From NCBI RefSeq assembly GCF_032884065.1, contig NC_088879.1:18958038-19022037 (forward strand): DNA of 64,000 nt. The letters are read 5' to 3'. Source of the stretch: Artemia franciscana. Lineage: Eukaryota; Arthropoda; Branchiopoda; Anostraca; Artemiidae. Both the position numbers and the translations under genes were made by a program. This document shows, piece by piece, positions 2,493 to 59,840 of the stretch. The number at the start of each line of letters is the position of its first letter. Position 1 is the stretch's first letter. The notes beneath the pieces were generated by a model. The model was not told where the DNA came from. It saw only the letters and a list, made by a program, of their open reading frames with translations, and made no database searches.

Positions 2493-2732
2493 TTAGAAGC
2501 AAATAGAAAGAAGAATACCAAACAAAAATGAATAGCAAATAAACAGAATACGATCTATAAATAAGGCAAAGACCATCCATTCCATATTTGCTCCTGTGCT
2601 CGAAGAATCCACAACAAATTGTTCTAAATCTGGCTGATGACTGCTTATTTCGTTATGACGACTGGACTGAGAATGTTCAAAACTCGTAGCAATTCCATTA
2701 AGCGTCTCTAAGGGTTTGTGTGTTGGAGAAAT
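2493..2732 (-). CDS. Exon 11: cytoplasmic loop end, TM4 and stop codon
   Basis: Acceptor ttctttctttcctag|ATTTCT; the frame ends in TAA at 2493-2495. It encodes 79 residues: a Ser/His-rich loop, then [17 protein letters not shown] and a hydrophobic tail ending Ile-Cys-Phe. The 'W..VA..IDR..F..Y' pattern is the classic pre-TM4/TM4 signature of Cys-loop receptors. The C-terminus stops at the end of TM4, as is usual. Confidence 0.88.
   Translation of the reverse strand: MSPTHKPLETLNGIATSFEHSQSSRHNEISSHQPDLEQFVVDSSSTGANMEWMVFALFIDRILFICYSFLFGILLSICF

Positions 2733-59840: not shown

Follow-up and report, generated by a model that had tools for sequence, protein, structure and literature searches.

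A predicted Artemia franciscana gene joining an N-terminal FAMeT domain to a divergent nicotinic-type Cys-loop subunit

A stretch of 64,000 nucleotides from Artemia franciscana (C17:18958038-19022037, that is, contig NC_088879.1; hereafter "the window"), part of a genome assembly of 1,270,528,402 bases in 6,468 contigs, carries ten exons that can be read as one gene. Its predicted product combines a FAMeT domain with a complete ligand-binding domain (LBD) and the M1-M4 region of a Cys-loop receptor, in this order. We consider it probable that this is one gene for a divergent, non-alpha nicotinic-type subunit, which gained its N-terminal FAMeT domain by exon shuffling and wears it as an extracellular, non-catalytic binding cap. 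The domains, their order, their common strand and the intron phases are established, as is the missing cysteine pair in loop C.

Results

Gene structure and domain content

The gene model was built by reading the minus strand of the window, which contains no N, and fixing the splice sites. Ten exons, running from 59840 to 2493, join into one open frame of 573 complete residues followed by the stop codon TAA (Table 1). Neither a stop nor a frameshift interrupts the frame, all nine introns are GT-AG, and the exon phases are compatible at every junction. From 5′ to 3′, the introns measure 5,869, 2,408, 16,209, 4,639, 3,382, 8,978, 2,250, 8,744 and 3,145 bases. An original prediction, made from the letters of the window, had placed the start, the end and the junction between exons 3 and 4 (51129/34919, where the Asp codon G|AC is split) exactly where they are found here. 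Its layout, three FAMeT exons followed by the channel exons on one strand with matching phases, stood as well; its count of eight channel exons and ten junctions is corrected to seven and nine. The 573-residue protein looks complete without an eleventh exon.

In the spliced translation, Pfam assigns residues 7-143 to PF12248 (Methyltransf_FA/FAMeT; 128.6 bits, cut-off 24.2, E=1.9e-37, profile positions 3-139 of 140) and residues 164-373 to PF02931 (Neur_chan_LBD; 161.9 bits, cut-off 26, E=2e-47, profile positions 2-215 of 216). The third family expected in the original prediction, PF02932 (Neur_chan_memb), covers M1-M3 with 26.9 bits, slightly under its cut-off of 28.1 (E=7.2e-6, profile positions 2-113 of 233); the other two are far above theirs. 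This domain content is far beyond chance. The closest PDB sequences for the channel part are those of nicotinic acetylcholine receptor (nAChR) beta-4 (E=1.5e-44) and then alpha-7, taken from the best 60 of the 295 distinct sequences that pass E=0.001. The alignment with nAChRs extends through M3; M4 was assigned by eye, its alignments with beta-4 and alpha-7 not being significant. The two cysteines of the Cys-loop, with 13 residues between them, lie in exon 6. For the FAMeT part, no PDB sequence matched up to E=10, and a weak Pfam match to Neuralized (E=0.039, under the cut-off) may be a hint of a beta-sandwich fold, no more.

The junction between the FAMeT and channel exons

At the junction of exons 3 and 4, exon 3 leaves and exon 4 enters in phase 1, which restores the split Asp codon. 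The exon 3 donor (GAG|GTACGG) scores 5.0, the second best of the nine, and is located a few codons past the end of the FAMeT domain. Directly upstream of exon 4, no in-frame start codon with a signal peptide was found. The 16-kb intron between the two exons was scanned for phase-1 exons with a hydrophobic leader, using a main and two looser thresholds and the opposite strand as control. At the main threshold, the scan returned no candidate on the coding strand and one on the control strand. Pfam gave no match above cut-off for four open reading frames (ORFs) of this intron; a small gene may lie inside it, these four of its ORFs being covered. Order, strand, phase, the lack of a start before exon 4 and of a good leader in the intron, together with the phases shared with other Cys-loop genes (see below), support the predicted fusion. 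The single-gene reading is clearly favoured, and the fusion is best described as a strong gene model rather than a demonstrated mRNA.

Intron phases and the origin of the FAMeT module

Taken together, the three FAMeT exons begin and end in phase 1 and thus constitute a symmetrical 1-1 module, 435 bases in length. The phases of related genes were sampled at 11 of the 84 PF02931 matches in the genome, namely, those that start at profile position 1-3 and represent first LBD exons. In seven of them, the acceptor read as the best has phase 1 and precedes the anchor motif by 4-8 codons; these seven include two near-identical copies (L053 and L054) and two loci that offer other AGs too (L017 and L056). 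Three others have the signal peptide read in the same exon, and the remaining one, GABA-type, is in phase 2. The intron before exon 4 has the same phase and falls into the same short stretch before the LBD as those of its relatives, at a different codon; the positions are near, not identical. Farther downstream, exon 5 has the same phases at both borders as its counterparts in all three canonical loci inspected by eye, and the donor of exon 4 agrees with that of L017. A symmetrical phase 1-1 module at a phase-1 intron is the expected signature of exon shuffling. Many related genes have a phase-1 intron at the place taken here by the FAMeT module, and this arrangement suggests that the block was acquired in this way.

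Residues of the channel part

Judged by its residues, the channel part is a divergent nicotinic-type subunit. Adjacent cysteines in loop C are the mark of an nAChR alpha subunit, and the aromatic box of the principal acetylcholine site contains a Tyr from loop A, a Trp from loop B and a Trp from loop D. In the predicted protein, loop C has no adjacent cysteines (alpha-7 RFYECCKEPYP is aligned with a CC-free segment) and, compared with alpha-7, the Tyr of loop A is replaced by Ala (LYNS/LANS), the Trp of loop B by Tyr (GSW/YSY) and the Trp of loop D by Phe (IWLQ/GFLQ). Because the loop C cysteines and all three aromatic-box residues are missing, the channel part is probably a non-alpha subunit, and it should not form a principal acetylcholine site. 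In M2, Glu is kept at −1′ (PEK aligned with GEK of beta-4 and alpha-7). This residue is the mark of a cation-selective pentameric ligand-gated ion channel (pLGIC) and would favour cation conduction for the predicted subunit. Tyr at 2′, Val at 9′ and Tyr at 20′ make the segment unusual. The loop between M3 and M4, counted by eye, comprises ∼80 residues.

A candidate first exon

Because the first two bases of exon 1 complete a codon (phase 1), an upstream exon is required, and the start codon and signal-peptide exon lie outside the span of 59840-2493 given in the original prediction. The same leader scan, applied to the 54 kb upstream of exon 1, returned four candidates at the main threshold versus one on the control strand. 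The preferred candidate (C17:19028783-19028732, donor TAG|GTATGT) is located ∼10.9 kb upstream of exon 1, beyond the window. Its putative leader peptide reads MLRTFGFISVLMLGISL-G-| before the residues of exon 1, and joined to this exon it reads MLRTFGFISVLMLGISLG|CKEL.... It is the most natural-looking leader, and a candidate only; the leader scan alone proves nothing.

Relatives elsewhere in the genome

A FAMeT profile search of the genome (E up to 10) produced five matches. Three are the FAMeT exons described above, and the other two are copies of a single exon on C6; searches of this kind may miss distant or short exons. The C6 exon is 34% identical over 53 positions and its borders differ, so that it does not appear to have served recently as the donor. 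The two C6 copies (L048 and L049; C6:28656805 and 28985525) are separated by 329 kb. Their aligned DNA blocks show 87-95% identity, with 94% in the vicinity of the exon, and one of the copies is near an ORF that by eye resembles a reverse transcriptase. When the FAMeT query was run against bacterial genome contigs and viral contigs, and the LBD query against viral contigs, no match was obtained with a scan that reaches close relatives only.

A second divergent nicotinic-type gene (L025, L050 and L063 at C17:18777319 to ∼18789970, minus strand, and L064) is encoded on the same strand 170-183 kb downstream. The phases of its M1-M2 exon (L025) equal those of exon 8 at both borders, and the two exons, equally unusual in M2, share Pro at −2′, Met at 13′ and Tyr at 17′ and 20′. 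Upstream of L025, there are exons resembling exons 5 and 6; a first LBD exon and a FAMeT exon were not found in the stretches read, outside of which 18799501-18928037 lies. The two genes may form a small divergent subfamily. The near-identical first LBD exons L053 and L054 (C9:47804191 and 48424699), which belong to a canonical nicotinic gene, are 620 kb apart and represent either a recent duplication or an uncollapsed haplotype.

Table 1. Exons of the predicted gene and the intron separating its FAMeT and channel parts (window positions).
Feature	Position	Strand	Content
Exon 1	59661..59840	−	FAMeT start, ends ...EIVIGAA; phase 1 in, phase 1 out; PF12248 positions 3-55 (six-frame genome search)
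Exon 2	53680..53791	−	FAMeT middle, ends ...EYRGFWISF; PF12248 positions 55-93, E=0.0105 by itself
Exon 3	51129..51271	−	FAMeT end, ends ...GKWLHSCEG; phase 1 out, G|AC codon; PF12248 positions 90-139
Exon 3-exon 4 intron	34920..51128	−	16,209 bp, between FAMeT and channel exons
Exon 4	34750..34919	−	First LBD exon; entry phase 1, as in 7 of 11 first LBD exons elsewhere in the genome
Exon 5	29956..30110	−	LBD, loop D region; both border phases equal in each of three canonical loci inspected by eye
Exon 6	26348..26573	−	LBD including the Cys-loop
Exon 7	17195..17369	−	Loop C region without CC pair, start of M1
Exon 8	14792..14944	−	Remainder of M1 and M2; paralogous exon L025 on the same scaffold, equal phase at both borders
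Exon 9	5878..6047	−	M3 and beginning of intracellular loop
Exon 10	2493..2732	−	Remainder of loop, M4 (by eye), stop TAA

Other features of the window

Several introns contain repeats. In intron 7, a 120-bp unit is repeated in tandem 15.7 times (window 14966-16852, 97% matches), the array ending ∼20 bp before exon 8. With each unit, a 39-residue minus-strand open frame and an acceptor-like TTTACAG recur. Intron 6 carries a segmental duplication (window 24000-26010; the comparison covered 24000-27500), in which two blocks of 300 bp each occur in two copies with 100% identity, spaced 1,265 and 1,194 bp; within ∼25145-25011, a sequence copied from the exon 6 3′ end (NPEYSVS...) is repeated. A (TA)80 run at 6067-6226 precedes the acceptor of exon 9 (6048) at a distance of ∼20 bp. 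Searching the window with Rfam at gathering scores and for tRNA genes gave no matches, and Pfam gave none above cut-off for nine other ORFs, the four in the 16-kb intron included, out of the many present.

Discussion

Proposed arrangement of the protein

If the ten exons form one gene, the FAMeT exons (phase 1-1) would have entered, by shuffling, a phase-1 intron that separates the signal-peptide exon from the first LBD exon, a location shared with many related genes; a block of this kind in front of the LBD makes it easy to see how the architecture could have come about. The chain would then consist of the signal peptide, FAMeT, a linker of ∼20 residues and the LBD. After cleavage of the signal peptide, FAMeT would sit on the extracellular side atop the LBD, at the apex as in DeCLIC. 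There, it most likely would serve as a non-catalytic binding domain, the partner of which might be a glycan, a matrix or microbial surface, a protein or a small hydrophobic ligand, and binding would place the receptor or tune its gating. The subunit itself would most likely join cation-conducting heteropentamers without binding acetylcholine itself. A bolder version, in which this is the first animal pLGIC with a folded N-terminal sensor and an external ligand (a glycan, a microbial surface or a juvenoid, for example methyl farnesoate) directly gates or strongly tunes the channel, appears decidedly improbable to us. Such a channel would amount to an animal equivalent of the bacterial DeCLIC design, reached independently through exon shuffling.

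Several observations weigh against the single-gene account. Phase agreement at the decisive junction of exons 3 and 4, taken alone, is a 1-in-3 event. Read-through past the exon 3 donor stops after ∼14 codons, near an AATAAA at 51089 (this strand of the window has 87 AATAAA); because of this stop and this AATAAA, a FAMeT-only transcript is possible. At the looser thresholds, the leader scan of the intron between these exons does return candidates, one and two on the coding strand compared with one and five on the control strand. Moreover, the exon 1 donor is weak (score 0.1, the lowest of the nine) and itself falls under the threshold of the leader scan; thus, a first exon with a weak donor in the intron could be missed. 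The exon 4 acceptor is 15 codons before the equivalent motif, whereas the acceptors of the seven phase-1 genes are 7-11 codons nearer to the LBD. Upstream of exon 1, the leader scans gave 4 versus 1 candidates at the main threshold and 5 versus 7 and 11 versus 13 at the looser ones (coding versus control strand), taken together not clearly above chance, and the top-scoring candidate (extended coordinate 90229-90115) differs from the preferred one. A second FAMeT-channel gene was not found in this genome by the FAMeT profile searches (E up to 10). Finally, the binding role and the effect on gating are putative.

Alternative explanations

One alternative is that the window contains two same-strand neighbors, a secreted FAMeT protein ending at or just past exon 3 and a channel gene with its own first exon in the 16-kb intron. 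The read-through stop with its AATAAA would provide the end of the former. The weak intron leaders seen at looser thresholds would provide the beginning of the latter; the intron is the longest of the nine (16,209 bp versus 2,250-8,978), and gene starts do vary, a signal peptide being read inside the first LBD exon in 3 of the 11 sampled genes. Two genes are nevertheless unlikely, as neither an in-frame start codon with a signal peptide directly before exon 4 nor, at the main threshold, a phase-1 leader in the intron was found, and the exon 3 donor, fair by its score, has the matching phase and lies just past the domain end. Somewhat less unlikely is that the gene is one and its FAMeT domain optional, alternative promoters or exon skipping giving rise to channel isoforms with and without it. 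The block is 1-1 and 435 bases long, so that a phase-1 signal-peptide exon joined directly to exon 4 would stay in frame, and copies of pfam12248 are alternatively spliced in insect famet genes (PMC10015273); the sequence itself bears no sign that skipping is used.

That FAMeT has kept an enzymatic or methyl-farnesoate-linked role, which would make the channel a receptor for a sesquiterpenoid hormone, is very improbable. The idea draws only on the family name and on the importance of methyl farnesoate in crustaceans. Methylation of farnesoic acid by members of the family is doubted in the literature (PMC10015273), and up to E=10 there is no PDB sequence relative from which a site could be transferred. 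A pseudogene or a meaningless join in the assembly is hardly credible. Divergent pore residues, and repeats and a duplicated exon fragment in the introns, would fit such a reading; ten exons without stop or frameshift, GT-AG at every border, PF12248 and PF02931 far above cut-off and a window without N argue against both.

Relation to published work

According to PMC9897478, N-terminal domains of pentameric channels are a prokaryotic feature that no eukaryotic homolog has been observed to carry, which agrees with the original prediction that nicotinic subunits normally have no domain before the LBD; that prokaryotic pLGIC members may include an N-terminal domain is also stated elsewhere (PMC12664993). 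A superfamily-wide phylogeny removed terminal sequence before analysis and called for a study of domain architecture (PMC4795631). As this sequence was discarded, architectures such as the one proposed here could have been overlooked. Arthropod pfam12248 proteins were surveyed and found in crustaceans and insects only, with two tandem domains or as pfam12248-DUF3421 (PMC10015273), not as the single domains that the original prediction had attributed to crustacean proteins. According to the same survey, enzymatic activity of pfam12248 has never been reliably shown in vitro. FAMeT modules also occur, with unknown role, in secreted multidomain footprint (adhesive) proteins of sea stars (PMC9382459), and the domain has been described in CPAMD8-type proteins (PMC9363628). 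An oyster FAMeT protein binds microbes, according to the title of Li et al. 2021 (reference in PMC9358689).

By word search, the main text of the arthropod survey (PMC10015273) contains none of "ion channel", "acetylcholine", "neurotransmitter" and "Artemia", and the Artemia genome papers (PMC11492255 and PMC8406910) contain none of "acetylcholine", "ligand-gated" and "farnesoic". Iso-Seq and RNA-seq data have been produced for Artemia franciscana (PMC8465105), and assemblies of A. sinica, Branchinecta, Triops, Lepidurus and Daphnia are named in PMC11492255. No report of a FAMeT-Cys-loop fusion was found among the titles and abstract openings surveyed, a coverage outside of which most of the subscription literature lies. 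PF12248 is one of the 83 Pfam accessions of a GABA-A-receptor positive set in a table of a machine-learning paper (PMC4992803). Its entry there does not establish a fusion, and an older database record is possible. The 83-accession set reportedly also contains many non-channel families. InterPro may already record an architecture of PF12248 plus channel.

If the preferred reading is true, a nicotinic-type subunit with an N-terminal domain would break the prokaryote-only rule stated in PMC9897478. It would also allow the influence of an apical domain on Cys-loop receptor gating to be tested in a natural protein, and would give the FAMeT domain a functional setting.

Comparison with known systems

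The predicted protein resembles nAChR subunits in its complete LBD, the 13-residue Cys-loop, M1-M4 (M1-M3 slightly under the Pfam cut-off, M4 by eye) and the phases at those LBD exon borders that were read. It differs in the FAMeT domain ahead of the LBD, in a loop C without the CC pair, in its altered loops A, B and D, in its unusual M2 and in an M3-M4 loop of ∼80 residues (counted by eye). With other arthropod FAMeT proteins it shares the Pfam domain, whereas the architectures described for them are without a channel (PMC10015273). Footprint proteins of sea stars and CPAMD8-type proteins likewise use FAMeT as an extracellular module, but they are not membrane channels (PMC9382459; PMC9363628). 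There is a parallel in design with DeCLIC and other prokaryotic pLGICs, which have an extra domain on the extracellular side before the LBD (PMC9897478 and PMC12664993), as the Artemia protein would according to its gene model. DeCLIC, in contrast, is prokaryotic, with two jelly-roll lobes and control by calcium, whereas the Artemia gene would place PF12248 on an animal Cys-loop subunit.
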